Source of the DNA: a virus
Reading direction: 5' to 3' (one strand)
Length of the DNA stretch: 36,004 nucleotides
IMG/VR virus record: IMGVR_UViG_3300030328_001411
Span: 1 to 36,004 of that record
Part shown: positions 1-36,004 of the stretch, piece by piece
Position numbering within the stretch: the first letter of the stretch is position 1
How the letters are laid out: each line of letters starts with the position of its first letter
Made by a program: the position numbers and the translations under genes
Notes under the pieces: generated by a model
Told to the model about the DNA's origin: nothing
Database searches by the model: none
What the model saw: the letters and a program-made list of their open reading frames with translations, nothing else

Positions 1-100
1 TATTTAAAGAGTTCTTTTGAAATAGGTTATGGTAGATCACCAGCTATGACAGCTCTTGCTGATACCAAAATGCTTAATAAAATGAGTGAAGTATCTATAC
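1..100. repeat. Left copy of 100-bp terminal overlap
   Basis: Bases 1-100 are repeated at 35905-36004 with one difference (A at 99, T at 36003). The repeat lies inside the portal coding sequence and keeps its frame, so it marks an arbitrary cut in a circular or circularly permuted molecule. A biological terminal repeat would be expected in non-coding DNA. The single mismatch may be strain variation or an end-of-read error. Confidence 0.9.
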
Positions 101-828
101 GTTATGCTCAGAAACTTGTAGATCCTCCTCTTATAGTTCCAGATGATGGTTTTATGCTGCCTATAAGAACTGTTCCAGGTGGATTAAATTTTAAAAGATC
201 TGGGACCAGGGACACAATAGAACCATTGAATGTTAATACTGGTAATCCTTTAGGTATGCAGATGGAAACGCAAAGGCGTGAAATGATACGCCAGGCTTTT
301 TATGTAGACCAATTAATCCTGGGTGCGTCACCAAACATGACAGCAACCGAAGTTATGCAGCGTACTGAAGAAAAGATGCGTTTACTAGGTCCAGTTATGG
401 GACGTCTGCAAGCAGAATTATTACAACCATTAATAGAAAGAGCTTACAATATTCTTTCCAGGGATAATGCTTTTGCAGAAACACCGGAAGTATTGCAAGG
501 AACTGATATAGAAATTGATTATGTATCCCCATTAGCAAAAGCTCAACGCCAGGGAGATGTACAATCAGCTCTACAATTATTAGAAATTATGGCTCCACTT
601 GCCCAGGTAGATCCTTCTATCATGGATTATATAGATGTTGATGGAATGTCGAAGCATATCATAAAGACTCTAGGAGTCCCAGCAACAGCTGTAAGAGGTG
701 ATGAAGAGGTTAGAGGAGTCAGACAGCAAAGACAAGCTGCCCAGGCTGCTGAACAAGAGAAACAAGACGCATTACAAGCAGCTGAAGCAGCTGGTAACGC
801 AGCACCAATACTTAAAGCTCTAACTTAA
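1..828 (+). CDS. Portal (head-tail connector) protein, C-terminal part
   Basis: This is the C-terminal 275 residues of the T7 gp8-like portal that begins at 35134. Position 1 is the first base of a codon and joins in frame to position 35904, giving a full protein of about 532 residues, close to the T7 connector (536). The portal forms the dodecameric ring at the capsid vertex that nucleates assembly, passes DNA during packaging and binds tail tubular protein A. The first Met in this part, at 46, is internal and not a real start. The C-terminus is alanine- and glutamine-rich and helical, as usual for the wing/crown end. The stop codon overlaps the next start (TAATG), a sign of coupled translation. 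Confidence 0.93.
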   Translation, partial: YLKSSFEIGYGRSPAMTALADTKMLNKMSEVSIRYAQKLVDPPLIVPDDGFMLPIRTVPGGLNFKRSGTRDTIEPLNVNTGNPLGMQMETQRREMIRQAFYVDQLILGASPNMTATEVMQRTEEKMRLLGPVMGRLQAELLQPLIERAYNILSRDNAFAETPEVLQGTDIEIDYVSPLAKAQRQGDVQSALQLLEIMAPLAQVDPSIMDYIDVDGMSKHIIKTLGVPATAVRGDEEVRGVRQQRQAAQAAEQEKQDALQAAEAAGNAAPILKALT

Positions 829-1040
829 TGGATAAAGATTTAAAAAAAAGCTACCAGGTTCTGTTTGCAACAGATGATGGGACAAAAGTTTTAGATGATT
901 TACACAAAAGGTTTCATGTAGATCAATCCACATTTTCTAATGATGCTTTAGAGATGGCATTTTTAGAAGGTCAACGTAGCGTAATGCTATTTATTTTAAG
1001 ATCAATAACAGAAGAGAAGGAGATTATAAACAATGAGTGA
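828..1040 (+). CDS. Bbp19-like small protein
   Basis: This 70-residue acidic protein resembles the Bbp19 family of podoviruses. It has an aspartate/glycine segment followed by VLxDLxxRF near residues 20-28, then a central acidic stretch and FLEGQRSVMLFIL near residues 45-57. Family members sit between portal and scaffold genes and have no proven function; a packaging or assembly accessory role is inferred from place. It starts on the A of the portal stop codon and overlaps the scaffold gene by 8 bases, so the three genes are probably translated as one unit. Confidence 0.6.
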   Translation: MDKDLKKSYQVLFATDDGTKVLDDLHKRFHVDQSTFSNDALEMAFLEGQRSVMLFILRSITEEKEIINNE

Positions 1041-1872
1041 AGAAGTAGCAGAAGCTCCAGCAGCTGATCTAGTCGATCAAGCTAATGGACAAGCATCTGT
1101 GGATTGGAAGGCGTCAATTCCAGAAGAAATTAGGGGACATAAATCATTAGAAACTATCCAGGACGTACCATCATTAGCAAAGAGTTATGTAAATGCTCAA
1201 TCTATGATAGGTGCTGACAAGATTGCATTACCTGGTAAATCATCAACACCAGAGCAATGGGGTGAGATATATTCTAAATTAGGCAGACCAGAAGCTGCTG
1301 ATAAGTATGAGTTGGCAAACAATCTTCCAGAAGGACAAGAGCTGGATCCTACTTTAATGGGTGGTTTTACAAATACTGCCCATGCTGCTGGATTAAGCAC
1401 TAAGCAAGCTCAATCTTTACTCGATTGGTATAATGGTGTCCTGGTTGACAGTACAGCTCAGACAACAGCTGCTGAACAAGCTCAACTGGAACAAAGGACC
1501 AATGAATTGAAACAACATTATGGTCCAGCTTTTGAAGATAGAATTAACCTGGCTAAAGCAGTATCAGCTCAGTTTACAGAAGGTGATGAGAATATCTTTG
1601 ATGTAAAACTTGCAGATGGATCTCTCCTGGGCAATCACCCAGACTTTATAAAAATGACAGCAAACATGGGCGTTTTTATGAAAGAGAAGATGGGAGAAGA
1701 TACGCTTGAAGGTGTTAAAACAAGTGGAGCTTCTTCCAGGCATGAACTGGAAGGTAAAGTTGCTCAACTGCAAGCACCAGATAGTCCATACTGGGATAAT
1801 AAACACCCAGAACATAATTGGTATGTGAATGAAGTTACCAGGGTAAATGGTGAACTTTATCCAGATGAATAG
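1033..1872 (+). CDS. Capsid assembly scaffolding protein
   Basis: This 279-residue, acidic, alanine/glutamine-rich protein lies between portal and major capsid genes, the classic place of the T7 gp9-type scaffold, which guides procapsid assembly and is then released. The N-terminal 20 residues look disordered. A helical stretch follows (LAKSYVNAQSMIG at about 48-60), a motif seen in many podovirus scaffolds, and the tail holds a helix likely to bind capsid protein. The start is set by AGAAGGAG about 12 bases upstream. Identification rests on position and composition more than on catalytic motifs. Confidence 0.8.
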   Translation: MSEEVAEAPAADLVDQANGQASVDWKASIPEEIRGHKSLETIQDVPSLAKSYVNAQSMIGADKIALPGKSSTPEQWGEIYSKLGRPEAADKYELANNLPEGQELDPTLMGGFTNTAHAAGLSTKQAQSLLDWYNGVLVDSTAQTTAAEQAQLEQRTNELKQHYGPAFEDRINLAKAVSAQFTEGDENIFDVKLADGSLLGNHPDFIKMTANMGVFMKEKMGEDTLEGVKTSGASSRHELEGKVAQLQAPDSPYWDNKHPEHNWYVNEVTRVNGELYPDE

Positions 1873-1914
1873 AGTTACCTGGGAAACCAGGGAATAAGGG
1901 TAGCCTTTAGGTCC

Positions 1915-1932: not shown

Positions 1933-2004
1933 AATGCAAAAACCTTTCGTCCAAATAATTGGGTAGCGATCTTAATTTTAATTTAATATAAAGGAGATAC
2001 TCTT

Positions 2005-2868
2005 ATGAGTACGCAAATAACTACTGCTTTTGTGCAGCAGTTTAGCTCCAATATTACGCTTTTATCTACTCAGAAAGGTTCCAGACTTAGAGGATCCGTT
2101 GATGAAGAGAGCGTAACTGGTGAAAAAGCATTTTTTGACCAGATTGGTTCTGTAGCTGCAATCGAAAGAACTTCACGCCATGGTGACACACCATTGGTTG
2201 AAACCCCCCACTCAAGACGAATGGTTACAATGAAAACTTTTGAATGGGCAGATCTTATTGATGATGCTGATAAAGTTCGATTACTGGCTGATCCAACAAG
2301 TGTTTATGCTAAGACAGCAGCAAACGCTCTAGGTAAAGCTATGGACGATCAGATCATTAGTGCTGCAACTGGTTCAGCTGCTACTGGCAAAGCTGGTGCA
2401 AGTTCAACTTCAATGTTGGCTGCTAATCAGATTGCTCATGGATCAGCTGATCTAACAATCGCAAAACTTATTTCTGCAAAAGAAATACTTGATGCTGCTG
2501 ATGTGGACCCAGATATACCAAGATATATCGCAGTTGCACCAGCTCAGATTTCTGCATTGTTAGGTACAACGCAAGTTACAAGCAGCGATTTTAACTCTGT
2601 GAAAGCTCTTGCTCAAGGTCAAGTTGATAGCTTTATGGGATTTAAATTCATAATCTCAAATCGTTTGTCTGTAGCAAGTAGTATTCGTAAATGTTTTGCC
2701 TGGGCAGAAGATGGTCTTAAATTGGCTGTTGGGAAAGATGTCATGGCAAAAATTGACGAGAGAGCAGACAAGAGTTATTCAACTCAAGTCTATTACTGTG
2801 CGACTTTTGGTGCAACGAGAATGGAAGAAGCAAAAATCGTAGAAATTAATTGTGATGAGTCAGCATAG
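2005..2868 (+). CDS. Major capsid protein
   Basis: This 287-residue protein sits downstream of the scaffold and upstream of the tail genes. It resembles the HK97-fold capsid proteins of temperate T7-like podoviruses of Proteobacteria: an N-terminal segment around SRLRGSVDEESVTGEKAFFDQ with the family's RxxxTP/VETPHSRR region near 60-72, and alanine-rich spine helices with a KEILDAADVDPD segment. It would form the icosahedral shell. AAGGAG lies 9 bases before the ATG, and a hairpin upstream and a terminator downstream of the next gene frame a capsid transcription unit. CCWGG is almost absent here (one copy, near 2699), unlike neighbouring genes. HK97 fold is inferred, not demonstrated. Confidence 0.88.
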   Translation: MSTQITTAFVQQFSSNITLLSTQKGSRLRGSVDEESVTGEKAFFDQIGSVAAIERTSRHGDTPLVETPHSRRMVTMKTFEWADLIDDADKVRLLADPTSVYAKTAANALGKAMDDQIISAATGSAATGKAGASSTSMLAANQIAHGSADLTIAKLISAKEILDAADVDPDIPRYIAVAPAQISALLGTTQVTSSDFNSVKALAQGQVDSFMGFKFIISNRLSVASSIRKCFAWAEDGLKLAVGKDVMAKIDERADKSYSTQVYYCATFGATRMEEAKIVEINCDESA

Positions 2869-4115: not shown

Positions 4116-6707
4116 ATGGCTAAAGCGTCAGCTGCATTATCAAATTTTACTGGTGGCGAATTATCGCCCAGGTTAGATGGAAGGACAGATCTATCTAAAT
4201 ATTTTAATGGCTGCAAAAAATTACAGAACTTTGTTATTCACCCTCATGGTGGAGCGAGTAGACGCCCAGGAACAATTCATATTGCAGAGGTTAAAAACTC
4301 TGCTCATGGTTGCCGATTAATACCTTTTGAATTTAATGTTACCCAGGCGTATATCCTGGAATTTGGTGACGAATATTTTAGAGTTTATAAAGATGGAGGC
4401 CAGATAGTAGATGGTGGTAGTGCTGTTGAAGTAGCAACGCCTTACGATCATACAGAATTAAGTGAGTTGAAGTTTACACAATCAGCTGACGTTATGTATA
4501 TTGTTCACCCAAGTTATGCTCCCAGAAAAATTACCAGGACAAGTCATACAGCCTGGTCAATATCGGAAGTGGACTTCACTAGAGGTCCAATGCAAGATCC
4601 TAATACAACGACAACAACTTTAACAGCTAGTGCCAGAACTGGCAGCGTGACAATTACTGCAAGTGCCAGCACTTTTGCATCTAGTGATGTTGGACGCCTG
4701 GTAAAATTACATGATGGTTATGCAAAGATAACTGCATATTCAAGTGCAACTTCTGTCACAGCAACTGTCCAGGACAATGAAGATGGTGTAGCTGAACTTG
4801 CACCTTCTTATACAGCAACTACTATTGCTTTTCATGAAGGTGATCCTAGTACAACTGGATTAGAACATAACGATAGAATTACAGATAGTGCTGCTAATTT
4901 TGTTGACCAGGGTTTTAAAGCTAATACAAAAGTTACAATAAGTGGTGCAAGCAATGGAGGTAATAATAAATCAACAGCTGTTTTAATTGTCCAGGTCACA
5001 GCTGATACAATATTGTTTTCACCTTCTGTAGATTTTGTAGCAGAGTCAGCTAGTCAGAGTGTGACAATAAATGGAGCATTAACAGCTGATAATAACTTTT
5101 CATTAGGAGCTTTTTCTACAACAACTGGGTTTCCAGCTGCGACAGCTTTTTTTGAACAACGCCTGGTTTTTGCAAATACTGCTACACAACCACAAACAAT
5201 TTTCTTTTCAGTAGGTGGTGATTTTGAAAACTTTACAGCTGGTACAGATAATGATGATGCACTAACTTATACTATTGGATCTAACCAGGTTAATGTTATT
5301 CGTTATTTAAGTTCTGGTAGATCTCTCATTGTGGGAACTAGTGGTGGTGAATTTGCTGTCACAGCGTCTGGAAGCTCTGAGCCTTTAACGCCAACTAATG
5401 CACAAATAAAACGCCAGGCAAGTTATGGTAGTGCAGATATACAACCAGTAAGCGTTGGTAATGTAACTTTGTTTGTTCAGCGTGCCAGGAGAAAACTAAG
5501 AGAGCTGGTTTATGATTATAACTCAGACAGTTATTTAGCACCGGATCTTACATTATTAGCAGAACATATTACAGCAAGTGGCATAAAAGAAATTAGTTAT
5601 ATGCAAGAGCCAGATAACATTGTCTGGTGTGTTTTAAACAATGGTAAACTTGCTGGCATGACTTATCGAAGAGAAGAACAAGTTGTTGCCTGGCACGAGC
5701 ATATTATTGGTGGAGTATCTGGAAGTGCTACAGTAACTGTTTCAGATTATGCAAACATAGCAACTGGAGCAACTTTAAAAATAACTAAATCTGACGGAGA
5801 AACCATTACTTTTACTTGCCAGGGAGCTGGAAGTTCAACGCCAGATACAAACAAGTTTTTTCATAATGAAAGCAATAATACAACAGCTGATAATATTTAT
5901 ACTGCTATTAATGCACATGATGATTTTACTGTTGCTAATCCAGCAGCAGCTGTGGTGACAATCGAAGAAACACAAAGAGCTGGTAATGGATTTTTAACTA
6001 TCGTTAGTTCTGACACAACTAGACTTGCAGTAACAGATCAAAGTTATGCTTTAGTAGAAAGTATTTCAACTATTCCAGGAGCGATAGACGAAGATAGTCT
6101 TTACATGGTTGTTCAAAGAACAATTAATGGAGCAACCAAAAGGTATGTTGAGTACCTAAACTTCTTTAATTTTGGGGATAATGTTCTTGATGCTTATTTT
6201 GTTGATAGTGGTTTATCTTATAGTGGAAGTTCCACTTCTTCTTTATCTGGGTTATCTCATTTAGAAGGTGAGCCAGTAACAATAGTTACCAATGGATCTA
6301 CCCACCCACGCAAATCAGTTTCAAGCTCTGCTATTACTTTAGACAGAGCTACAACAAGTGCTTATGTAGGATTAGGTTATACATCAACATTGCAAACAAT
6401 GCGTCTTGATGCTGGTGGGCAAGAAGGAACTAGCCAGGGAAAAACTAAAAGAATACATGATATAACATTAAGATTATTTAGAACGATTGGATCAAAAATA
6501 GGATCTTCTGAAACATTAGTTGATCTTATACCATTTCGTTCTAGTGCAGATCAAATGGACCAGGCACTCGATTTATTTACTGGTGACAAGGAAGTAGAAT
6601 TTAGGGGTGGCTATGATAATGATGGTTTTGTTGTTGTTGTTCAAGATGATGCAATGCCATTAACTGTCCTGGCTATTTTCCCAAGATTGCAAACTTTCGA
6701 TCAATAA
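4116..6707 (+). CDS. Tail tubular protein B / nozzle (T7 gp12-like)
   Basis: This 863-residue protein is a little longer than T7 gp12 (794). The N-terminus carries family signatures: 'NFTGGELSPRLDGRTDLSKYFNGC' followed by 'NFVIHPHGGASRRPGT' (residues about 9-54). The rest is beta-rich, as expected of the nozzle propeller. Six copies form the tail tube end that contacts the fibres. A Thr/Ser-rich insertion (residues about 160-310) is probably an added immunoglobulin-like or beta domain, which accounts for the extra length. CCWGG occurs about 20 times in this gene. Confidence 0.93.
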   Translation: MAKASAALSNFTGGELSPRLDGRTDLSKYFNGCKKLQNFVIHPHGGASRRPGTIHIAEVKNSAHGCRLIPFEFNVTQAYILEFGDEYFRVYKDGGQIVDGGSAVEVATPYDHTELSELKFTQSADVMYIVHPSYAPRKITRTSHTAWSISEVDFTRGPMQDPNTTTTTLTASARTGSVTITASASTFASSDVGRLVKLHDGYAKITAYSSATSVTATVQDNEDGVAELAPSYTATTIAFHEGDPSTTGLEHNDRITDSAANFVDQGFKANTKVTISGASNGGNNKSTAVLIVQVTADTILFSPSVDFVAESASQSVTINGALTADNNFSLGAFSTTTGFPAATAFFEQRLVFANTATQPQTIFFSVGGDFENFTAGTDNDDALTYTIGSNQVNVIRYLSSGRSLIVGTSGGEFAVTASGSSEPLTPTNAQIKRQASYGSADIQPVSVGNVTLFVQRARRKLRELVYDYNSDSYLAPDLTLLAEHITASGIKEISYMQEPDNIVWCVLNNGKLAGMTYRREEQVVAWHEHIIGGVSGSATVTVSDYANIATGATLKITKSDGETITFTCQGAGSSTPDTNKFFHNESNNTTADNIYTAINAHDDFTVANPAAAVVTIEETQRAGNGFLTIVSSDTTRLAVTDQSYALVESISTIPGAIDEDSLYMVVQRTINGATKRYVEYLNFFNFGDNVLDAYFVDSGLSYSGSSTSSLSGLSHLEGEPVTIVTNGSTHPRKSVSSSAITLDRATTSAYVGLGYTSTLQTMRLDAGGQEGTSQGKTKRIHDITLRLFRTIGSKIGSSETLVDLIPFRSSADQMDQALDLFTGDKEVEFRGGYDNDGFVVVVQDDAMPLTVLAIFPRLQTFDQ

Positions 6708-7161: not shown

Positions 7162-7659
7162 ATGATAGATAAACTACTTATGGCAGCTATGGCAGCGTCA
7201 ACAGCTGTATCAGCAGCTTCTCAGTTTGCAGCTGGCAAGCAACAAAAATCTGCCTATGATTATAATGCACAAATAGATGAGAGAAATTCCCAGGCTAAAG
7301 TAATCCAGGCTGAAGTATTTAAAAGAAATGCTAATTTACAAATACAAAAATTTCAAAAAGATTTTAGAAGATTAAATGATGCAACAAGCCAGGCATTTAG
7401 AGCAAATGGTTTTGTAGCAACTGGAGGAACGCCATTACTAGTTGCCCTGGAGAACGCACAAAATGCAGATGAAGAGATAGCAATAAGACAATATAATGCG
7501 TCAGTAGGTGAACAGCAAATAGAAGAGAGTGCTGTTAATGATAGGCTATCAGCTAATTTAAATCGAATGTACGGACAAGCAGCTCAAAAATCAGCCGTTA
7601 TTGGAGCTGGTAAAACGCTTATGTCTGGTGCGTCATCAATGTACTCAATGGGTAGATAA
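7162..7659 (+). CDS. Internal virion protein B (T7 gp14-like)
   Basis: This 165-residue protein has an alanine-rich hydrophobic N-terminus (residues 4-25) followed by a long Gln-rich amphipathic helix with AKVIQAEVFKRNA and 'FRANGFVATGGTPLLVALENA'. This layout is typical of T7 gp14-like ejection proteins, which insert into the outer membrane and begin the DNA channel. It shares its stop with the start of the following large ejection protein (ATAATG). Identification is by composition, motif and order. Confidence 0.85.
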   Translation: MIDKLLMAAMAASTAVSAASQFAAGKQQKSAYDYNAQIDERNSQAKVIQAEVFKRNANLQIQKFQKDFRRLNDATSQAFRANGFVATGGTPLLVALENAQNADEEIAIRQYNASVGEQQIEESAVNDRLSANLNRMYGQAAQKSAVIGAGKTLMSGASSMYSMGR

Positions 7660-10379: not shown

Positions 10380-13300
10380 GTTTTCTTTTTAACGACAATA
10401 CACCAACAGCTAATAATTCTGTTCAACCATTTCCTACAAATTACAGATCAAAAGCACGAGGAACTTTTGGTGAGAATTTAAGAGCTGGTTTTGGTATGTT
10501 TACAACCAATGAAACTACCTGGTCACCAGCTATTGTCCTGGAAGAAATCTGGGATCCTATTATAGATTTAATTCGTGAAAGAGGGTCAGAAGAGTTTGAC
10601 ACTTCATTAAGATCACAAATGACTAATAATCCCTGGTTTCCACAGAACGCTGGAACATTTGGCGTTAGTGCAATACAAAATCCAGCAACTCAATTACGCA
10701 TTGGTGTTTTAAATGATTTAGACCAAAGACTACGAAATGGTAATTCTGCGTATGTTCGTCATGCGTCAATGTACTTAAAACATATTAATGATAATCCAGA
10801 TAAATACCCAGAGTTACAAGGATTAACTCTTGAAAAGATCCTGGAACAAGGAAGAGAATACGCTACAAAGAAAAGAACAGACTTTGATGAGTTAGCTCAA
10901 AGATCACCAGGAGCTACAAAAGCAATAGCAAGATTTATTGGACAAGCTGGTGGTGTTATAAATGAGCCAGTTGTTGTTGGGTCCATGATGTTAGGTGGTG
11001 GACTTAACTCTGGATTATTTAAAATTGCTTTAACTGAGGCTGTTATAGGAGCTGGATCTGAAGCTATCTTACAGCCAAAAGTAGCTCAATGGTATAAAGA
11101 GCTGGGTCTGGAAATGTCCTGGGGTGATTATTTTACCAGGGTAGCAGCTGGAGGATTGTTTGGTTTTACAACTCCTTATGCAATAGCTGGAACAGTAAAA
11201 GGCATATCTATATCAACAAACAAAATACGCCAAGGTATAAATGTATTAACTGACGCAACAAGGGTAAGAGCTGAAGCAAATCCTAATGATGCAAAATTAA
11301 ATACAACTGCTACAGAAGTTGAACAAAACAACCAGGCAATAAATGAAGTAGCAGATGATATTGAAACCACTCAAACAAAGCCTATTGAAAATACTGAGGA
11401 ACATAACTTTAGATTAAATGAAGCTGAGAGGGCATTAAACGCAAATGAAATGCCCAATATACCAGAGCAGCCTATTAGTGATGTAAACCAGGCAAAAACA
11501 GTTTATGACAATGATCCACGATATGTAGATATAATTGATGTAGATTTTGATAGAGTTGATGTAGACGCCAGGTCATTTCAATATAAAGAAGGTGGTGATG
11601 CTTTTGGAGTCTTGCCAACATTGCAAGGTGTTACAAAATGGGATCCAATGAAAGCAGATCTCATAACTATATATGAAAGAGCAGATGGTAAACAATTTGT
11701 AGCAGATGGACACCAAAGATTTGGTTTAGCAAAAAGAATAAAACAAACAGATCCATCTCAAGATGTAAGATTAAAAGCATACGTTCTAAAAGAAACAGAT
11801 GGAATTACTGTTGACCAGGCACGAATAATTGCAGCTTTAAAAAATATTGCCCAGGGATCTGGTTCAGCTATTGATGCAGCAAAAGTTTTAAGAGTTGACC
11901 CAAATCAAGCTGGTGAATTACCTCCTAATTCATCATTAGTTAGAACAGCTAAAAACCTGGTTAACTTATCAGATGATAATTTTTTAATGGTAGTTAATAA
12001 TGTTATTCCAACAAACTTTGGTGCTAAAGTTGGTGAGCTAATACCAGATAATCCAGAACTACAAATAGCTGCTATTAATGTTTTATCTAAAACACAGCCA
12101 TCTAATATTGCACAAGCAACCTCTATTATTAACCAGGTTAAAAGTTTACCAACTGACCAGGTAAAGCAAACAAGTCTTTTTGGTGAAGAAGTAATATCTG
12201 AAAGTTTTTACCTGGAAAGAGCAAAGGTCCTGGACCAAACTGTAAAACAATTAAGACAAGACCAAAAATCTTTTGAAAACTTGATTAAAAATGCAGATAG
12301 TTTTAAAGAAGAAGGTAATGTTTTAGCACAAAAAGCAAATGAAACGAGAGTAGACAATGACCAAAAAGCAACGCAATTCCTCGAAAAACTTGCGAACAGA
12401 AGAGGGGAAATCTCAGAAAAGCTCAATGAAGCAGCAAAAAGAGCTAGGGCAGATGGAAACACGAAAAACGCTACAGCAGATTTTCTCCAGTTTATCAGAG
12501 GACGAATTGAACGAGGTGAACTATCACTTATCGAGGAACTTAATGCTGGAAGCCATTACCAAAATAAAACGAAAAGGTACACAAGCGAGAATGAAGAAGT
12601 CCAACAAGGTATTGATGAACCAGGAGGAGTTGAAGCTCAACGACAAGCAGATAGTTTAAAAAATGATTTAGACCCACCACGAGAGGCTTTTCAAGAAGAT
12701 CTTAATGAACGATTAGACCTGGAAAGTAAAATGAACGCTGGTGATTTTACTGTTGAGCAAATAGAACAACACCCAGCAGTTAAAAAAGCTGTTAATCAAA
12801 TGTACGATATACCAGAAACGATTGAACCTGGTAAAAAATCACTTGCAGATCTTACAGAAGAATATTTAGAAAATCGTCAATTTGTTGTTAAAGATAAAGC
12901 TGGACTAACAAGAAATGTCAAAGGTTACACAACTGGTGTTGCAGCTTTATATAATTACTTAACAAAATTTGCCTGGTTAGATGATGGTATAGATCCACCA
13001 GTAAATTCAGTAGCACAAGAAAAAAAAGCAGTAATATTATTAGGACAACCAGCGTCTGGTAAAAGCTCGATTGCTAATCCTATTGCTAGAAAAATGAAAG
13101 CTATTATAGCTGATAGTGATGAAGCAAAAAAGATATTACCAGAATACCAGGGTGGCATAGGAGCAAACGCTGTTCATAGTGAAAGCTCAATGATTAATGA
13201 TCTTATTTTATTTAATGCAGTAAGAAATGGTGATAATATCGTTATACCACAAACTGGTGGTAGACTTGAAACTATAGAAAAAAACATTAAATTATTAGTA

Positions 13301-16621: not shown

Positions 16622-19600
16622 ATGACAGTATCAAGTACAAATAATAAGGCGAGTTATAGTGCTAATGGATCAACTACGACTTTTGCTTATAACTTTACCA
16701 TCACAGCTGCGTCTGAATTAAAGGTATTTATAAGAAGTGCAACTGGAACTGAAACACTTAAAACTTTAACAACACATTATACATTAACCAATGTTGGTGT
16801 TTCTGGTGGTGGTAATGTGGTTTTTGTAACAAGTCCTTCAGATCACACTCCAGCAGATGGTGAAACAGTTGTTGTGCAAAGAGTGGTCCCATTAACTCAA
16901 GCAACAGATTATGTAGAAAATGATCCTTTTCCAGCTGCTACCCATGAAGATGCCCTGGATAAATTAACTTTTATTGCTCAACAGCTCCAGGAAGAAGTTG
17001 ATAGATCTCTAAAATTGTCTGTGACAAATACAATGACAAGTACAGAGTTTACTAAATCAGCTACTGATAGAGCTAACAAAATTATAGCTTTTGATGGTTC
17101 TGGAGAATTGTCTGTAACAACGGAGCTTGGAACTTTTAGAGGAAACTGGGCAGCTAGTACATCTTATAACTTGCGTGATTTGGTCAAGCAAAATTCAGCG
17201 AGTGATAGCTCAACATATAAAAGTATTTATATTTGCACAACTGCACACACAAGTACTGGATCTTATCTAACACAAAATGACACAAGCAACTGGTCGGTCC
17301 TGGTAGATTTAGCTGCACATGATACAATATCAGAATTAACTGATACTAATATATCAAGTTTAGCTAGTGGTCATGTACTAATATATGATGGTTCAGATAG
17401 CTTTGATAATAAAGCAATATCTGGTGATGCAACACTTGCCAATACTGGTGCTTTGACAATAGCAGCTGATGCTATCGAAAGTACTATGTTAAACGATAAT
17501 ATTATAAGTGGTCAGACAGCCATTACTTCTGGATTAGCTGCTACTGATGAATTACTTTTCTCAGATGCTGGAACAATTAAAAGAATGGACGTATCAGTTC
17601 TTACTGATTACTATAAAGCTCTTGAAGTAACTGAAACAAACAAAACATTAACATCACCTAAAATAAACGAAGATGTAGCACTTACAGCAACTGCTACAGA
17701 GCTTAATTTACTAGATGATGTGTCTGGGTTAGTGAAAGCAGACTTTACAAAACTTGCTGGCGTTGATTCAACAGCTACAGAACTTAATATTGTAGATGGT
17801 AATACCTCTGTTGGAACAACTACAGTTTCAGATGGACATGGTATTGTTATGAATCATGGTGGTACTATGGCACAAACTACAGTACAAACACTTGCTGCTT
17901 ATCTTGATGATGAAATAACTGCAATGCCAAATCTTGTAACAACTGCTGCAACAACAGTTGGAGCTTTAAATAGTGGTTCAATAACAAGTGGGTTTGGAGC
18001 TATTGACAATGGTTCTTCTGCTATAACCACAACTGGAACAGTTACATACGGAAGTCTTAGTGATGGATCAATAACAGTTACTGCGTTTGTTGACGAAGAT
18101 AATATGTCTAGTGATAGTGCTACTTTAATTCCTACTCAACAAAGTGTTAAGGCTTATGTTGATAATCAAACTTTATCATTAATTGATGAAGATAATATGG
18201 CAACAGATTCAGCATCAAGACCACCATCTCAACAGAGTGTTAAGGCTTACATAGCAACTCAAATAGCTACAAAAGATAATTCAGATGAAATTACAGAAGG
18301 GTCAAGTAATTTATACTTTACCAATGCAAGAGCAGATGCGAGGATTACAAATGCACTAATTGACGAAGATGATATGTCAACTAATAGTGCTACAAAAATT
18401 CCATCACAACAATCTGTTAAGGCTTATGTTGATGCACAAAAAGCTGATATGCAGTTCGTCCTGGAAGATGGTGATGGAACAGAAGTACAGATAACCAAAG
18501 ACAAAGAAGTTAAGTTTGTTGAAGGTGGTGGTATTGATATTAACTGGACTGATACAGACAACGGAACAGACGGAGATCCGTTTGATTTAACATTTACAAT
18601 TAATGCAGATCAAACAGACATTACTTCAATACTTGCGACAGATGTTAAGATTGGCGAAGATGACCAAACCAAAATAGATTTTGAAACAAATAATCAAATT
18701 AATTTTTATGCAGATAATACCAAACGAGTAACGATTGATTCAACTGGTTTAACTGTTAACTCTGGCAGTTTAGAAACAGCAACCATTGATTATACAGATG
18801 GCGATAATGCCATGACGATTGCAGATGGTGGTGCAGTTACATTCGCACAAGTTCCAGTTTTTCCAGATGACACGATTGAAACAAACGATATCCAGGACAA
18901 TGCTGTAACATTGGCAAAGATGGCTGGTTTGGCAAGAGGTAAACTAATTACTGGAGATAGTAGTGGTGATCCAACAGCATTAGCTATTGGTACAAATGGT
19001 CAGTATTTAAAATCAGATGGCAATGATTTGGTATGGGGTTCGGCTACAGTAAGTGGGTTAGCTTGTGATGATTTAACTGTGGGTGATAGTGCCGTTACAA
19101 TTTCTACATCATCTGGTAATATAACTTTAGATGCTCAAGGAGCTGATACTGACATCATTTTTAAAGGTACTGATGGTAGTGCAGATACAACCTTTTTAAC
19201 GATTGATGGTAGTGATGCTGGAAAGTTGTTACCTAATAATGGAATTGATTTAAATGCCAAAGAGTTAATATTAGATGCAGATGCTGATACTTCTATTACT
19301 GCCGATACAGATGACCAGATAGATTTTAAAGCTGGAAATGTTATAAGAGCATCTGTAATTTCAACTGGATTACAAATAGGTGGCACAGCCTATTTTGCTT
19401 CTCCAACATTAACTTTAAAAGACCCAGATAGTGGTGTTGGTGGTGGTACTATTGGTGGAAAAATAGATTTTCATACTAGTGATTCAACTGGTACTGGTGT
19501 TTCAGCAAAAATACAAGCTAAATATGAAGATGCTAATGGTAATACGTCTGTTTCTTTTGAAACTGGTAGTGGGGGAAGTACTTCTGAAAAAATGAACATA

Positions 19601-20116
19601 GCATCTGGTGGTAACGTAACAATAAGTGATGGTGATTTAGTTATTGGCACAAGTGGTCATGGAATTGATTTTAGTGCTACTGCAAATGCAAGTGGTGGTA
19701 GTAGTATTAACGAAATTTTGTCGGATTATGAAAAAGGTACGTTTACTGGAACTATGGTAGGTTCAAGTGGTTCTGCTGGAGCTGTAGCTGGAAATGCACA
19801 GACTTTTACATACGTTAAAATTGGTGAAATGGTAATGATTAATGGTTCACCAGCACTAACAAATACTGGCAGTTATAGTGGTGACGTAAGAATAACTGGA
19901 TTACCTTTTGCTAATGGTGCAAACCATAGTTTTAGCATACAATGTACTTGGCATAATTTTAATTCAAGAAATGATGCTTCAGCAAACATATATCCTTTTG
20001 GTTATGCTGGTCAAAGTTACTTACAATTTTCATACCCAGACACAAATTATGTTCAATGGTCAGCTGTTGGAACTGGATATTATGGTGTTGGTGGTGTTTA
20101 CCCAACTTTTGGATAA
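16622..20116 (+). CDS. Tail fibre protein with T7-type N-terminus
   Basis: This 1164-residue protein has an N-terminal T7 gp17-like attachment domain (residues 1-150, with SANGSTTTFAYNF, VQRVVPLTQATDYVEND and LTFIAQQLQEEVDRS). The shaft carries three copies of a DEDxMxxxSAxxxPxQQSVKAYV repeat starting at residues 491, 522 and 581, common in marine phage fibres. The C-terminus is Gly/Ser/Thr-rich and ends in an aromatic receptor-binding tip. Six trimers would bind the cell surface. Only five CCWGG sites occur in this 3.5-kb gene, against 7-11 per kb in its neighbours, and the last 1.2 kb has none, consistent with exchange of the fibre module. Confidence 0.9.
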   Translation: MTVSSTNNKASYSANGSTTTFAYNFTITAASELKVFIRSATGTETLKTLTTHYTLTNVGVSGGGNVVFVTSPSDHTPADGETVVVQRVVPLTQATDYVENDPFPAATHEDALDKLTFIAQQLQEEVDRSLKLSVTNTMTSTEFTKSATDRANKIIAFDGSGELSVTTELGTFRGNWAASTSYNLRDLVKQNSASDSSTYKSIYICTTAHTSTGSYLTQNDTSNWSVLVDLAAHDTISELTDTNISSLASGHVLIYDGSDSFDNKAISGDATLANTGALTIAADAIESTMLNDNIISGQTAITSGLAATDELLFSDAGTIKRMDVSVLTDYYKALEVTETNKTLTSPKINEDVALTATATELNLLDDVSGLVKADFTKLAGVDSTATELNIVDGNTSVGTTTVSDGHGIVMNHGGTMAQTTVQTLAAYLDDEITAMPNLVTTAATTVGALNSGSITSGFGAIDNGSSAITTTGTVTYGSLSDGSITVTAFVDEDNMSSDSATLIPTQQSVKAYVDNQTLSLIDEDNMATDSASRPPSQQSVKAYIATQIATKDNSDEITEGSSNLYFTNARADARITNALIDEDDMSTNSATKIPSQQSVKAYVDAQKADMQFVLEDGDGTEVQITKDKEVKFVEGGGIDINWTDTDNGTDGDPFDLTFTINADQTDITSILATDVKIGEDDQTKIDFETNNQINFYADNTKRVTIDSTGLTVNSGSLETATIDYTDGDNAMTIADGGAVTFAQVPVFPDDTIETNDIQDNAVTLAKMAGLARGKLITGDSSGDPTALAIGTNGQYLKSDGNDLVWGSATVSGLACDDLTVGDSAVTISTSSGNITLDAQGADTDIIFKGTDGSADTTFLTIDGSDAGKLLPNNGIDLNAKELILDADADTSITADTDDQIDFKAGNVIRASVISTGLQIGGTAYFASPTLTLKDPDSGVGGGTIGGKIDFHTSDSTGTGVSAKIQAKYEDANGNTSVSFETGSGGSTSEKMNIASGGNVTISDGDLVIGTSGHGIDFSATANASGGSSINEILSDYEKGTFTGTMVGSSGSAGAVAGNAQTFTYVKIGEMVMINGSPALTNTGSYSGDVRITGLPFANGANHSFSIQCTWHNFNSRNDASANIYPFGYAGQSYLQFSYPDTNYVQWSAVGTGYYGVGGVYPTFG

Positions 20117-20452: not shown

Positions 20453-20477
20453 CTAACTTCCTCCCAGGCGAAAATGA

Positions 20478-22031: not shown

Positions 22032-22042
22032 GAGATTATTTG

Positions 22043-22186: not shown

Positions 22187-22190
22187 GACT

Positions 22191-22295
22191 ATGCCAAGAA
22201 AAGGACAAGGCAGATTAGCTAAAGAATATAAAGCAACAAAAGTCAAATCAAAAAAAGTTGCAACTGCTAGTCAGAAAACAACTAAGAAAAAGTAA
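22191..22295 (+). CDS. Tiny basic hypothetical protein
   Basis: This 34-residue protein (MPRKGQGRLAKEYKATKVKS onward) is extremely Lys-rich and has no family assignment. It follows the previous tiny gene by 4 bases and overlaps the endolysin start (TAATG). Arrangement and coupling support it as a gene, but its small size keeps confidence modest. Confidence 0.45.
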   Translation: MPRKGQGRLAKEYKATKVKSKKVATASQKTTKKK

Positions 22296-23240: not shown

Positions 23241-24392
23241 ATGTTAGACAATGTTAAAACTTATTTCGTTCCATCTAAAAAGAAATGGTGTGTTGATGAG
23301 CGTATAATGGTTGATGGGAAAAGGTCTGGTGATATGGCTTGGTTCATCAAGCGTGATGACGCAACAAAGTATTTAAGATTATTAGAGAATGAAAAACCAG
23401 CAAGTTCTACAGATAGTTTTAAATGGAACATGAAAACCCTGGTCCAAGAATATTTAAAAGAAGAGAAGTCCAGGTTTGATATTGGTGAAGTAGGCGATAG
23501 TGTTTATACTAGAGTCCATTTTGTTTGTAATAGTTTTTTAAATTATACTATTGACAGTATGCCAGTTGCAGATCTTAAAGTTCATTACATATCTGCTACT
23601 ATGGTCCAGTTTGATATCATGCAGCAGCTGGTAAAAGACAGAGCTAAAAGAACTGTCCAGGAACATCTGAATTATTTACGAGGTATGTTTAGTTTTGCAG
23701 TTCAGAAAGGCTGTAGAATTTCTAATCCTTTCAATGAAATAAAACCTAAACTTACCAGGGAAAGTAATCTTACAGTTAAGAAAATTAAAAAGATTAGTCC
23801 CCATATTATCTCAGCTATATTTAATGAGCTTCAAGAACCTTGGAGATTGATGAGTAGGTTTGCAGCTCTTACTGGTTTAAGATCTGGTGAACAAGCTGTA
23901 TTGACCTGGGGAGATGTTGACCTGGATAATCTAACTGTTCATGTTACCAAAGCTCTCAAAGGTAAATCAAAAGAATATGCAAAGATTGCAGATCCAAAAA
24001 CTTTTAATGGTATTAGAAGAGTTTACCTGGACCATGCACCAGAATTAGTTACAGAATTAAAAGAGCTGTTTATTAAACAAGGTAGACCAGCTCCGGACAA
24101 ATATGTTTTTCCAACTAAAGATGGCAGCTATCAGAAAAGAAGAAGGAAGAGAGAGAAACTTCAAGCAGCTTGTAACAAAGCTGGACAAGATCAAATTACC
24201 TGGCATGACCTTCGTCACTTTTATGCAAGTATCTTAATAGCCAGGATCCCAGAAGATATAAAAACGATTAGTGAACAGCTCGGTCATGGTAGTACCAGGA
24301 TAACTGAAGAGGTTTACGGACATTGGATTGATGATCCACTAAAAGAGAACTCAACCAGGGCCAAACTACAAAAAGTGGGGTCAGTTCTCTAA
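23241..24392 (+). CDS. int: Tyrosine recombinase integrase
   Basis: This 383-residue integrase has the full catalytic set: R214 in TGLRSGEQ, K253, H322-xx-R325 in WHDLRHFYAS, H349 in LGHGSTRITEEVYGHW and nucleophile Y359. The N-terminal ~60 residues resemble an arm-binding domain and 65-160 a SAM-like core-binding domain. AAGGAGG precedes the ATG. It would recombine attP with a host tRNA gene. An operator covers its promoter, which would shut it off under repressor. The phage is therefore temperate. Confidence 0.95.
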   Translation: MLDNVKTYFVPSKKKWCVDERIMVDGKRSGDMAWFIKRDDATKYLRLLENEKPASSTDSFKWNMKTLVQEYLKEEKSRFDIGEVGDSVYTRVHFVCNSFLNYTIDSMPVADLKVHYISATMVQFDIMQQLVKDRAKRTVQEHLNYLRGMFSFAVQKGCRISNPFNEIKPKLTRESNLTVKKIKKISPHIISAIFNELQEPWRLMSRFAALTGLRSGEQAVLTWGDVDLDNLTVHVTKALKGKSKEYAKIADPKTFNGIRRVYLDHAPELVTELKELFIKQGRPAPDKYVFPTKDGSYQKRRRKREKLQAACNKAGQDQITWHDLRHFYASILIARIPEDIKTISEQLGHGSTRITEEVYGHWIDDPLKENSTRAKLQKVGSVL

Positions 24393-27022: not shown

Positions 27023-27856
27023 TTATAAGGTATATCCTTGATTTGAATAGTTATTTATTTCGCCATTGGTATATGTATCAATGAAGTTTTTTTCCAGTTG
27101 AACGACTACTGGACACGCCCAGTTTACTGTAATTCCCTTGTAGTTATTCGATTCGTCTGACTTGGCTACTTCCCACATACCAGTTATATCAAAAAGTTCA
27201 CCATCTGACCTGGGCATTAAACGTCCAGTAAGTATTGTGTCTTTACCATCTACAGTACAGCCACAAATTGACCAGGCATTTATTGATCTTTCGTCAATGC
27301 ACTTGTTTTTATTTTGCATATCAAACAAATCAACAGCTCCATACTTTAAAGAATTTGGATTGCTTGTTAATATTCTTTGACCTTCAAAAAAAGATGGAAA
27401 GTTTGTAGGTAAATACAAATTTTCTTCATTTTTAATAAGTTCTGTTTCCCTGGATAAATATTTTCTACTTGTTTTAATAATAATTGGATCTGGTTCAAAC
27501 TGGACCACGCCAGGTGGCAGCTTTAACAGATCTGCAAGTTTAATTATATCTTCCTTGCTTGCTTGTTGTTTGTTTTTTAACCATCTATTCAAGGTTTCTG
27601 GAGGTTTCTCCAGTTCCTTTGCTAGACTAGCCTGGGTAAAACCTTGTTTCTCCATGGCTGCTTGTACTAATTTATTCATCAGTTCCCCTTTTATTTTAAT
27701 TCTCTTTCCAAAAAAAGTTATTGACGGAGGAGTAAGTTTATTATGTTTTCTTAGTTGTCTTATTGTTTGTTTACTAAAATAATCATTGATTTGAATAACA
27801 GTTTTCTTTTGACCTTTCCAATAAGACAACTGCTCATTAAGTGTCCCTTGTTTCAT
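27023..27856 (-). CDS. Repressor-like protein with XRE helix-turn-helix
   Basis: This 277-residue protein has an XRE-type HTH at residues about 60-115 (MNKLVQAAMEKQGFTQASLA, then KPPETLNRWLKNKQ). The C-terminal part is not a clear S24 peptidase, so SOS cleavage is not supported. There are two possible starts, both with good ribosome sites: ATG at 27856 (AAGGAG) and ATG at 27679, codon 60, exactly before the HTH (AAGGGG). It lies leftward and divergent from the Cro-like gene, with operators between, as an immunity repressor would. Confidence 0.65.
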   Translation of the reverse strand: MKQGTLNEQLSYWKGQKKTVIQINDYFSKQTIRQLRKHNKLTPPSITFFGKRIKIKGELMNKLVQAAMEKQGFTQASLAKELEKPPETLNRWLKNKQQASKEDIIKLADLLKLPPGVVQFEPDPIIIKTSRKYLSRETELIKNEENLYLPTNFPSFFEGQRILTSNPNSLKYGAVDLFDMQNKNKCIDERSINAWSICGCTVDGKDTILTGRLMPRSDGELFDITGMWEVAKSDESNNYKGITVNWACPVVVQLEKNFIDTYTNGEINNYSNQGYTL

Positions 27857-30918: not shown

Positions 30919-30951
30919 AAAAAAAAATGACATTTACATTAAAATATGTCA
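30919..30951 (-). terminator. Intrinsic terminator after TGT-like gene
   Basis: On the minus strand TGACAT and ATGTCA form a 6-bp stem (30951-30946 with 30933-30928) around a 12-base AT-rich loop, followed by nine T. The stem includes the stop codon of the gene it ends. Confidence 0.65.
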
Positions 30952-31698
30952 ATGAGCTACCTCGAAGAGTGGCATTTCAGCAAGCTCAATGCCTTTGACC
31001 TTGGCTGCTAGTCTGTCTGCAAACTCTCTAACATGGTTAATAAATTTCTTTTTTGTTCTGCAATGGTTGATTGCAATGTTGCAGCTATCGGCACTATCAA
31101 AGCCTATCTTGTGAAAGACACCTAGACCTCTCATCATGTGGATCCAGGGACGATCTTTATTATACTTTCTTTCCCAGTAATTCATGTGAGCAAAAACTTC
31201 TTTGATCTTTTCCATGTAAGCACTACCAGTTTTGTTCCTTGCTATATCAAATTCCTGGCAACTGCCAAAACCAACAAAGTTAAATATTCTGAATAACTTC
31301 TCTAACTGCTCCAGGCTTTCATTTAAATGCCAGATTGCCATAGCTCTTTCTGGGTATTTTAATTTGTCCTGGCGAAGAGCTTTAGCTATGAGCTGTAAGT
31401 TTTCTTCCTCGTTGCCATCAATCACATCTGGGATTACTGCAACAGCCTGGGGACATCTGTCCATTGCTGCATTTGCCCAGGCGTAAAAGCCGTCCCACCA
31501 GGCATCATCAAGAGTCAATCCTTGTTTCCAGGCTGTGAAAGCTCCATTGTCCAGGATTAGGATCTGGTCCTTACCAACCAGCTCAATACATTCGTCAAGC
31601 TGTTCTGGGTTCATATAACTGACGCAGAAGCTGCCACCTTTGAGCTGTGGTAGTAATCTCTTTGGAGTGATTGGAGTCCCATGAACTAGTCTTTTCAT
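30949..31698 (-). CDS. tRNA-guanine-transglycosylase-like protein (DpdA/DUF7221-like)
   Basis: This 249-residue protein resembles phage TIM-barrel proteins related to queuine tRNA-ribosyltransferase. Visible marks are ILILDNGAFTAWKQG (an Asp/Asn-Gly-Ala-Phe motif), AVAVIPDVIDGNEEEN with an Asp that fits a catalytic position, IWHLNE, FVGFGSC and GLGVF near the C-terminus. Members of this group insert 7-deazaguanines into DNA or act on tRNA. No preQ0 biosynthesis genes are present, so the base would have to come from the host. The AAGGAGG site is strong, and the gene is alone under an operator-bearing promoter. Confidence 0.6.
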   Translation of the reverse strand: MKRLVHGTPITPKRLLPQLKGGSFCVSYMNPEQLDECIELVGKDQILILDNGAFTAWKQGLTLDDAWWDGFYAWANAAMDRCPQAVAVIPDVIDGNEEENLQLIAKALRQDKLKYPERAMAIWHLNESLEQLEKLFRIFNFVGFGSCQEFDIARNKTGSAYMEKIKEVFAHMNYWERKYNKDRPWIHMMRGLGVFHKIGFDSADSCNIAINHCRTKKKFINHVREFADRLAAKVKGIELAEMPLFEVAH

Positions 31699-31979: not shown

Positions 31980-32372
31980 ATGAAAAAAGAACGAGTTACA
32001 AAGAAACAAATGGAGCTTATCTGTAATGAGCTTATGGAAGGCAAGAGCCTGGCTAAGATATGCCAGGGCAATGCAGATCTTCCCAGCTCAAGAACAGTTA
32101 CCAGGCATCTCCAGGACAGCGAAGAGAGTTACGTCCAGTATCGCAAAGCAAGAGCGATCCAGGGTGAATTGCTGCGTGATGAGATCATTGACCTGGTAGA
32201 GCAGAAACTTCCAGAAGATCCTAAACTGGCAATGGCAGAAGTAGGACGCAGACGCCTCGAGGTAGAACATAAGGACAAGTATATTAGGCAGCTGCAACCA
32301 CTAGGAATAAGAGATAGAGCAGAGGATAAGAGCGACCAGGTAAGTGGTACGATAACTTTGTCCTGGGAGTAG
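31980..32372 (+). CDS. Terminase small subunit
   Basis: This 130-residue helical protein has an N-terminal HTH-like region (KKQMELICNELMEGKSLAKI, then LPSSRTVTRHLQDSEE) and a helical oligomerisation middle, typical of small terminase. It recognises the packaging site and recruits the large subunit. No ribosome site lies upstream of the ATG; the T-tract of the terminator is there instead. The next in-frame Met (32010) has none either. Confidence 0.8.
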   Translation: MKKERVTKKQMELICNELMEGKSLAKICQGNADLPSSRTVTRHLQDSEESYVQYRKARAIQGELLRDEIIDLVEQKLPEDPKLAMAEVGRRRLEVEHKDKYIRQLQPLGIRDRAEDKSDQVSGTITLSWE

Positions 32373-32616: not shown

Positions 32617-33915
32617 GTGACACACATCAATATACCTTACAAGCCAAGACCACTACAAAAGGAATTGCACCAGGCTATATCAGAGCATAGATGGTCTGTC
32701 GTGGTATGTCACAGACGCTTTGGTAAAACAGTAGCTGCGATTAACCATTTGCTGAGAGATGCTATCCTTACCTCGAAGTCTAACCCCAGGTTTGCTTATA
32801 TAGCTCCAACGTATAGACAAGCGAAGAACGTAGCCTGGGACTATTTGAAACAATTTGCTAGTGCAATACCTATGGCAAGGTTTCATGAAACAGAACTTAG
32901 AGCAGACTTGCCTAATGGTGCAAGGATCCAGTTACTGGGAGCTGAGAACCCAGACAGTTTAAGAGGAATATATCTTGATGGTTGTGTACTTGATGAAGTC
33001 GCAGATATGCCAGAAAGTTTATTTCCAGAAGTTATAAGACCAGCGTTATCAGATAGGAACACCAAGGAGAAGCCTACCTGGGCGTTATTTATTGGTACAC
33101 CTAAAGGCACTAATGCTTTTTATGATTTATATGAAGCTGCCCAGGAACAAGAGGATTGGTTTAGTGTTATTTATAAAGCAAGTGAAACTGGCATTGTTGA
33201 CGAAGAAGAGCTAGACGCAGCTCAAGCTATGATGACGCCAGACCAGTTTGCCCAGGAGTTTGAATGTTCCTGGGTTGCAAATGTTCCTGGGTCCATTTAT
33301 GGCAAAGAGTGCCAGGCTGCATTAGATGAGAAGAGAATATCGAATGTGCCTTACGATCCTTCAGCCAAGGTTGATACCTGGTGGGATCTTGGTATTGGCG
33401 ATAGTACAGCGATTATCTTTACGCAAAGTATAGGTAGAGCTATTCATGTTATTGATTTTTATGAAAGTAGAGGTGAGGGACTCCCCCACTATGTAGATGT
33501 ATTGTCCAGGAAGAATTACCTTTATGGGACCCACAATGCTCCACATGACATTGATGTGAGGGAACTGGGTACTGGAAAATCCAGGAGAGAGATTGCCTGG
33601 GACCTTGGGATTAACTTTCGTGTAGTTCCAAAGCTGCCAATAGAAGATGGTATTCACGCAGCTCAGTTGCTGATAGCCAGGACCTGGTTTGATAGAGATA
33701 ATTGTAAACATTTTTTAGAAGCCTTACGCCAATACCATAGGGCATATAATGAAAAGACAAGATCCTTTCGTGCAACGCCAGTTCACGATTGGTCAAGCCA
33801 CGCAGCAGACGCCTGGCGTTATTGTGCTGTAGGTATAAGAGAAGGGAAGGGATATGATAGACCTCCCCAGAATTTTGCTGATAATAAATATAACCCTCTA
33901 GGAGTTGCAGTATAA
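32617..33915 (+). CDS. Terminase large subunit
   Basis: This 432-residue protein starts at GTG with GAGGAGG upstream. The ATPase has Walker A RRFGKT at 33-38, Walker B-like GCVLDEVAD, and a coupling motif (FIGTPKGTN). The nuclease has Asp in WWDLGIGDSTAI and in HDWSSHAADAWRY. It packages DNA with the small subunit through the portal. It belongs to the phage terminase 6 type used by headful packagers, which suits a circularly permuted genome. Confidence 0.95.
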   Translation: MTHINIPYKPRPLQKELHQAISEHRWSVVVCHRRFGKTVAAINHLLRDAILTSKSNPRFAYIAPTYRQAKNVAWDYLKQFASAIPMARFHETELRADLPNGARIQLLGAENPDSLRGIYLDGCVLDEVADMPESLFPEVIRPALSDRNTKEKPTWALFIGTPKGTNAFYDLYEAAQEQEDWFSVIYKASETGIVDEEELDAAQAMMTPDQFAQEFECSWVANVPGSIYGKECQAALDEKRISNVPYDPSAKVDTWWDLGIGDSTAIIFTQSIGRAIHVIDFYESRGEGLPHYVDVLSRKNYLYGTHNAPHDIDVRELGTGKSRREIAWDLGINFRVVPKLPIEDGIHAAQLLIARTWFDRDNCKHFLEALRQYHRAYNEKTRSFRATPVHDWSSHAADAWRYCAVGIREGKGYDRPPQNFADNKYNPLGVAV

Positions 33916-34771: not shown

Positions 34772-34773
34772 GC

Positions 34774-35133
34774 ATGGGTGCAGTTGTAAATTTAATTAAA
34801 AAGGTTACTGGTGCAGCTACTGGTAAAACACCAGCAGCACCACCAGCAGAAGAGGAAGAAGTTACACCTACGCCTACGCCTACGCCAGTTGTAACGCCAA
34901 CTCCAGTTGTGACACCAACTCCAGTTGTAACGCCAGCTCCAGTTGTTTCAGAGCCAGAGCCAGAGCCAGAGCCAATAACGCCTAAAGATCCAGTAAGGCA
35001 AGGTGATCCTGGTGCTGTAGGTACTGGACAATATAAAAAGAAAAGAAGGACCAGGACAAAAACAGTAATGACAAGTTCAAGTGGTGTTCTTGGTGATGCA
35101 CCAGTTAAAAAGAAAACTTTATTAGGATCTTAA
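34774..35133 (+). CDS. Proline/threonine-repeat head-associated protein, paralogue 2
   Basis: This is 119 residues from ATG 34774; GGAG lies 7 bases before it, which favours it over the in-frame ATG at 34762. The middle is TPTPVV and EPEPEP repeats. 'ITPKDPVRQGDPG' and 'KTVMTSSSGVLGDAPVKKKTLLGS' match the parts of the 33915 gene. It lies directly before the portal. Confidence 0.62.
   Translation: MGAVVNLIKKVTGAATGKTPAAPPAEEEEVTPTPTPTPVVTPTPVVTPTPVVTPAPVVSEPEPEPEPITPKDPVRQGDPGAVGTGQYKKKRRTRTKTVMTSSSGVLGDAPVKKKTLLGS
34868..34974 (+). repeat. Coding tandem repeats
   Basis: An 18-base unit starting CCAGTTGT occurs at 34885, 34903, 34921 and 34939, preceded by CCTACG steps and followed by GAGCCA hexamers. 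It encodes TPxPVV and EP repeats. Such arrays change length by slippage. Confidence 0.8.
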
Positions 35134-36004
35134 ATGTCAGATAAAAAAGCAGAACAAATTGTTAAACAGTTTGATAGTTTAGCAGCTCAAAGATCTAACT
35201 GGGAAAGTCATTGGCAAGAGATTGGTGATTATATTATCCCCAGGAAAGCAGATGTTACAAAAGCAAGAAGTGATGGTGATAAAAGATCAGAGCTTGTTTT
35301 TGATGGTACAGCTCTTCATGCAGCAGAATTATTATCAGCTAGTTTACATGGAATGTTGACTAATTCCAGTACAGCCTGGTTTTCTTTACGCTTTCGTAAT
35401 GCAGAGCTTGATGGGAATGATGAAGCAAAAGAATGGCTGCAATCTGTAGAAGATGTTATGTACCTGGCTTTTTCCAGGTCAAACTTCCATGAACAAGTGC
35501 ATGAGCTTTACCATGACTTAATTACTTTTGGTACAGCTGTGATGTTTATTGAAAATGATCCTAAGTATCAATTACAGTTTTCAACCAGGCATATATCAGA
35601 ATGTTACTTATCAGAAGATGAGAAGGGCAGAGTTGATACAGTATATAGAAAATTTCAAATGCCAAATCGTGCTGTACTGCAAAGATTTGGTGAAAAGGTT
35701 TTATCAACTAAAAGATTAACAGAAATAAAAGAAAATCCTTACAATAATACAACTCTTCTTCATGCTGTGTTTCCAAATAGCGAAAGAGATATAACAAAGG
35801 TTACGAATAATAATAAACCATTTTCTTCTATTTATGTGGACCATGAAGAAAAAATTACATTATCAGAAGGTGGTTTTGATGAATTACCTTATTGCTGTCC
35901 CAGGTATTTAAAGAGTTCTTTTGAAATAGGTTATGGTAGATCACCAGCTATGACAGCTCTTGCTGATACCAAAATGCTTAATAAAATGAGTGAAGTATCT
36001 ATTC
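35134..36004 (+). CDS. Portal (head-tail connector) protein, N-terminal part
   Basis: ATG follows the previous stop by one base. The first 257 codons before the join carry family marks: 'RSNWESHWQEIGDYIIPRKAD' (residues 20-40), 'ELLSASLHGMLTNSSTAWFSLRF' and ELYHDLITFGTAVMFIEND. It continues at position 1. It is the T7 gp8-like connector, about 532 residues in all. Confidence 0.95.
   Translation, partial: MSDKKAEQIVKQFDSLAAQRSNWESHWQEIGDYIIPRKADVTKARSDGDKRSELVFDGTALHAAELLSASLHGMLTNSSTAWFSLRFRNAELDGNDEAKEWLQSVEDVMYLAFSRSNFHEQVHELYHDLITFGTAVMFIENDPKYQLQFSTRHISECYLSEDEKGRVDTVYRKFQMPNRAVLQRFGEKVLSTKRLTEIKENPYNNTTLLHAVFPNSERDITKVTNNNKPFSSIYVDHEEKITLSEGGFDELPYCCPRYLKSSFEIGYGRSPAMTALADTKMLNKMSEVSI
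35905..36004. repeat. Right copy of 100-bp terminal overlap
   Basis: This is identical to bases 1-100 except at 36003 (T for A). If joined, the molecule is 35904 bases. Confidence 0.9.

Follow-up and report, generated by a model that had tools for sequence, protein, structure and literature searches.

The window analysed here is the whole of record IMGVR_UViG_3300030328_001411 (36,004 nt), the genome of a marine-type phage in which the palindrome CCWGG is exceptionally frequent. The record is essentially complete, because it carries a 98-bp direct terminal repeat, with positions 1-98 identical to 35905-36002. The phage codes for a head-tail adaptor alongside terminase, capsid, integrase and repressor proteins (Table 1), and its integrase gene suggests that it is temperate. 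Its nearest cultured relatives by terminase are the HTVC010P-type Pelagibacter phages, with 51-59% identity.

Table 1. Coordinates of the annotated features of the window
Feature	Coordinates	Strand	Size, match or basis
Terminal repeat copy 1	1..98	+	98 bp
Major capsid gene	2005..2868	+	phrog_3437
Putative tail-fibre-type gene	16622..20116	+	name from size and position
Tyrosine integrase	23241..24392	+	PF00589, E 3.3e-18
Repressor-like helix-turn-helix protein	27023..27856	-	PF01381, phrog_8
DpdA/TGT-like protein	30949..31698	-	phrog_887, E 1.7e-29
Terminase small subunit	31980..32372	+	PF20901, phrog_1482
Terminase large subunit	32617..33915	+	PF03237; basis of family tree
Terminal repeat copy 2	35905..36002	+	98 bp

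An initial annotation had proposed a roughly ten-fold excess of CCWGG from hand counts in four segments, and these counts proved exact (18 in 1-2000, 20 in 4116-6707, 18 in 7659-10379 and 26 in 20453-22753). The whole window contains 288 copies (165 CCAGG and 123 CCTGG), i.e. 8.0 per kb with a median site-to-site spacing of 81 bp, where base composition predicts 27.4 (a 10.5-fold excess) and a maximal-order Markov model 128.6. The excess stood up to the codon-preserving shuffle that the annotation had suggested as a check. Coding DNA harbours 267 copies as opposed to 56.2±4.6 in codon- and protein-preserving shuffles (z=41), which makes CCWGG the 5-mer with the top z. All three codon phases carry it (41, 94 and 132 observed vs 37.6, 6.9 and 12.6 expected), as does intergenic DNA (23 vs 2.3 expected), and the coding-strand copies of this palindromic motif divide into 161 CCAGG and 106 CCTGG. 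Shuffle, phase split and intergenic counts thus rule out protein sequence or codon usage as the cause. The palindrome is strongly over-represented beyond codon effects both within and between genes, and the view that the excess acts on double-stranded DNA and is unusual for a phage was borne out.

The annotation overlooked a second property, which every explanation has to cover. All 288 copies of CAGG/CCTG in the window lie inside CCWGG (288/288): CAGG is preceded by C 288 times and by A, G or T never (0, 0 and 0), although about 160 copies outside CCWGG are expected. Synonymous choice would permit DCAGG at 632 places and CCTGH at 541, with ~130 and 40 expected, and none is used. We refer to this confinement of CAGG as the lock. 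The one-base neighbours of CCWGG behave very differently from one another, with observed/expected ratios of 0.00 for DCAGG, 1.69 for DCTGG, 0.65 for CTWGG and 0.92 for CAWGG. Many further words have a count of zero, among them GGATG, GAGAC, CACTG, GCGC, CCGC, AGCCC, AAGCTT, CTGCAG, TGATCA, GAATTC, CAATTG, GAGCTC and ATGCAT; so many missing words are what heavy restriction of a phage would leave behind. SGATG as a class is almost missing (GGATG 0, CGATG 1), and so are CAGTG and CAGTC (0 and 2); asymmetric avoided words of these types differ from relative to relative.

Modelling of synonymous choice separated the two properties. In a conditional-choice model of synonymous codons, CCAGG has by far the top positive weight, and C-ending codons make up 59-71% of those before CTG, CAG, TGG and AGG as opposed to about 10-15% before most codons. 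We also used Gibbs sampling over synonymous sequences, with forbidden words as the constraint and a weight on CCWGG as the attraction. The unconstrained model yields 56 copies of CCWGG in coding DNA, and forbidding DCAGG and the other missing words raises this to only 60. Avoidance combined with an attraction of 3.0 gives 254 copies and with 3.5 gives 299, so that by interpolation the observed 267 is reached at a weight of ~3.1. Conversely, attraction without avoidance leaves 145 DCAGG. Thus, two distinct forces are at work, attraction to CCWGG and removal of CAGG outside it; according to the model both are needed, and the attraction amounts to ~20-fold per site.

To place these features in the phage family, we retrieved 80 terminase relatives (L numbers below) and built a tree of 59 rows. 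The number of origins of the pattern is uncertain, because several forks of this quick tree are unsupported. The lock occurs, complete or nearly so, in two low-GC lineages, one comprising the window and L002-L004 and the other L006 and L040-L081. The same pattern in the independent contigs L002-L004 and in the second locked lineage rules out an artefact. In two high-GC clades (L043-L060 and L007-L016) CCWGG is enriched 1.9- to 3.1-fold, with DCAGG just mildly reduced, to 0.64-0.71. CCWGG is also the most over-represented 5-mer in the coding DNA of L006, L008, L041, L055, L060 and L079, which range from 38 to 58% GC. By contrast, L023, L037 and L062 have no CCWGG at all, which suggests that other hosts restrict DNA at this motif, and Pelagibacter phages show little or no excess (x1.2 in HTVC010P, x1.8 in HTVC024P). 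The lock was found in none of 80 other viral loci picked for dense CCWGG. Both locked lineages are devoid of GAGCTC, CTGCAG, GAATTC and CAATTG, with TGATCA nearly gone as well, and these shared missing six-base palindromes suggest similar hosts. Some other words are also skewed in these genomes: GGWCC is in excess in the window (65 vs 28 by composition) and its lineage, not in the second locked clade; GAGCT and CAGCTG are over-represented in the window; and L021 lacks GCAGC altogether, where the codon shuffle predicts 34 copies, a further clear case of a single word being purged.

CCWGG sites are conserved beyond controls, as is expected of a highly iterated palindrome (HIP). At ~88% DNA identity, 170 of 198 sites are retained (0.859), compared with 0.683 for other 5-mers with four G/C. 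Relative to L006, L041, L068 and L079, at ~70% identity, retention is 44-54% vs 21-22% for controls; it is weaker in L045 (33% vs 16%) and L080 (25% vs 14%). Site density is nevertheless uneven along the window. Most genes use ~45% of their possible CCWGG sites, and the terminase large subunit gene 52%, whereas two genes stand out as deserts: the major capsid gene uses 1 of 16 possible sites and the putative tail-fibre gene 5 of 36. The capsid desert may reflect a weak preference for CCWGG that, in a gene expressed at a high level, is overridden by selection on codons. A Pfam scan of the putative tail-fibre gene returned zero matches. Elsewhere in the structural-gene block, a 1257-aa protein (10376-14149, + strand) has a zeta-toxin-like kinase domain (PF06414) at residues 881-1024, and its central region matches phrog_10691.

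The host side can be approached through prophages. The capsid family of the window is common in Alphaproteobacteria as prophage-like genes, related major capsid genes being present in 94 of 385 alphaproteobacterial genomes. In 18 of these genomes, the ratio of CCWGG to its codon-shuffle expectation in the prophage stretch tracks that of host DNA in the same genome (rho 0.96), although some of these stretches are only 4-5 kb long and prophages may have come to resemble their hosts after integration. This agreement supports a host imprint, short of proof for the window, and we consider that the CCWGG bias is probably imposed by the host. The phage lineage is probably one of Alphaproteobacteria. 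Neither a C5 nor an N4/N6 methyltransferase was detected in the window or in 17 related viral records, which excludes a phage-borne methylase as the source within this set; any methyl mark must therefore be host-derived.

The pattern as a whole looks like the imprint of the DNA-marking and DNA-cutting enzymes of a host. We tentatively favour, at somewhat less than an even chance, the reading that CCWGG is an HIP methylated by the host, combined with restriction of unprotected CAGG. The phage would adopt the palindrome from the DNA regime of its host under two forces, one favouring every possible CCWGG ~20-fold per site, the other purging CAGG/CCTG outside CCWGG as a restriction site while CCWGG is exempt. 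The host would methylate CCWGG by means of a cytosine methylase of the Dcm, DISARM or restriction-modification type, and this mark would block a CAGG-reading nuclease, leaving CCWGG as the sole context in which CAGG persists. CCWGG could build up in either of two ways: its marks may be read as self, or methylation-directed repair may favour the retention of mutations that create a markable site, as in Elhai's ratchet for HIP1. This kind of ratchet, put forward for HIPs, would affect the bases adjoining the methylase site (PMC4390886). We infer the source of the attraction to CCWGG, as we do the host, the methylase, the nuclease and the methylation.

Several observations weigh against this reading. 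The prophage-host correlation spans x0.1-1.5 rather than x5, and other motifs also correlate between prophage and host (rho 0.49-0.75), albeit below CCWGG. DCTGG, which is as near to CCWGG as DCAGG, is enriched in the window, whereas a simple ratchet predicts that all one-base neighbours are depleted. The missing viral methyltransferases count here as well, and we know of no enzyme with CAGG specificity that is blocked by CCWGG methylation. Finally, the host was not identified among the genomes scanned. In a sample of ~40 alphaproteobacterial genomes analysed for composition, none has CCWGG above x2.0 or the lock; a terminase scan of genome contigs gave a single metagenome-assembled genome (49%), without CCWGG excess; and a search for dense CCWGG over the 385 genomes found no match to the fingerprint of high CCWGG and absent DCAGG. 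Its candidates are high-GC genomes near x1, with the exception of G384. That genome was rejected as host, with CCWGG at x1.9-2.0, no lock and CCGCC as top word, and the orders of G384 and G121 yielded no usable candidate. G384 has a C5 methylase and no Vsr; at L274:5607-7711 the methylase gene is followed by that of an unrecognised 333-aa protein, a possible new restriction enzyme, and GGWCC is scarce in this genome (10 vs 115).

The reading of a host-methylated HIP predicts a nuclease that recognises CAGG except within CCWGG. It is possible, though on balance doubtful, that the pattern is a defence-driven word code, in which the host cuts CAGG unless it is marked in CCWGG, and phages purge bare CAGG and pack their genomes with the marked palindrome. 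If so, the code would amount to a restriction activity defined by its exempt context, and CCWGG would be, as far as we know, the first HIP to be maintained by a phage. Since HIP1 it has been asked why certain palindromes reach massive copy numbers in genomes. A single phage family here holds all states of CCWGG, from purged to zero through neutral and enriched to enriched with a locked core, and thus provides natural replicates whose host side is readable via prophages. The fingerprint of high CCWGG and absent DCAGG can moreover be used to find the uncultured host.

Among other explanations, CCWGG might be a recombination, replication or DNA-uptake signal of the host, similar to Chi or to DNA uptake sequences and independent of methylation. 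Any signal read by the host fits the density and conservation of the sites, their occurrence both within and between genes and the prophage-host agreement. However, most of the known Chi and uptake words exceed CCWGG in length and lack its symmetry, and such a signal by itself leaves the purge of DCAGG unexplained; we find this account unlikely.

Less probable still is a role of the phage's own DpdA-like protein, possibly an inserter of 7-deazaguanine into DNA, which would place that base in CCWGG as a shield against host nucleases, so that CCWGG accumulates and bare CAGG is lost. The gene is present in the window and in several locked relatives, and bases made by DpdA shield phage DNA from restriction (PMC6884629). 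Its distribution nevertheless does not match that of the CCWGG pattern. The terminase region is nearly the same in L068 and L079, and only L079 has the gene, yet in both CCWGG is at x3.7-4.0 and DCAGG at ~0.1; the gene is also missing from L080 (a 32.8-kb record) and L006 (20.8 kb). Conversely, Pam5 and Vibrio phage D105 have a DpdA-like gene and low CCWGG. Judging from these gene contents, the DpdA-like gene appears unneeded for the pattern. Small open reading frames stand in its place in L068, where it could have been recently lost or gained, and no other 7-deazaguanine synthesis genes were recognised near it in the window.

The initial annotation had listed Dcm/Vsr very short patch repair, converting CTWGG to CCWGG, among its candidate causes, together with a modification target; the latter stands as the best remaining reading, and the former, as sole producer of the excess, is very improbable. 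Vsr takes CTWGG as its substrate and affects only position 2 of CCWGG, where it brings back C. In its favour, NCC precedes Trp in 33 of 41 [Ala/Pro/Thr]-Trp pairs vs 9% in the background, the change that Vsr would make, and CTWGG falls somewhat short of expectation in the window (60/92). However, CTWGG is undepleted in the second locked lineage (278/264, 1.05) and hardly reduced in other enriched clades (0.81 and 0.95). Furthermore, position 1, which Vsr does not touch, is also pulled to C: C ends 30% of the codons before Leu-G vs 8-19% of those before other bases in the window, and 32% vs 12-14% in the second locked lineage, a pull not seen in unenriched relatives (23% vs 15-26%) or Pelagibacter phages (9% vs 8-9%). 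These two features reject Vsr alone. In addition, repair gives no account of the missing DCAGG, and no Vsr gene was found among 26 window proteins scanned with Pfam. We dropped the rarity of NCA-Trp codons as an argument against Vsr, NCA before Trp being rare in the unenriched MED606 genome as well.

Pure restriction avoidance, in which the purging of DCAGG and other sites lets CCWGG increase merely as the permitted neighbour, matches the similar sizes of CCWGG gain (256 vs 53) and DCAGG loss (0 vs 164), but it is scarcely credible for the excess and is refuted there by the Gibbs model with forbidden words, by [Ala/Pro/Thr]-Trp pairs that are drawn to CCTGG with no DCAGG at stake and by the high-GC clades enriched without a comparable DCAGG loss, and it stays as a reading of the DCAGG half.

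Four known systems invite comparison. The Escherichia coli genome carries a Dcm/Vsr imprint, with which the phage shares the motif and the direction of enrichment; unlike E. coli, the phage shows no general depletion of CTWGG, and the outer motif position is pulled too. In DISARM, a defence that reviews mention alongside CCWGG, the methylase marks CCWGG as self. A host system with such a self-mark would favour CCWGG-dense DNA, but it makes no prediction about CAGG. Restriction-site avoidance is documented for viruses generally (PMC6286503), and the window resembles such cases in the many palindromes and asymmetric 5-mers at count zero; it differs in avoiding one word in three of four contexts while strongly favouring the fourth. 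The fourth parallel is with HIP1 (GCGATCGC) and the alternate HIPs of cyanobacteria, which, like CCWGG here, are short conserved palindromes many-fold over-represented within and between genes. CCWGG behaves as an HIP in being palindromic, iterated, conserved and tied to the host. Cyanobacterial HIPs accompany matching methylases (PMC4390886), whereas none was identified for CCWGG in the window and the 17 related viral records. CCWGG also differs in belonging to a phage lineage, in its length of 5 bp and in its density of 8 per kb vs about 1 per kb, and, unlike with those HIPs, its core word CAGG is banned absolutely outside the palindrome while DCTGG is enriched.

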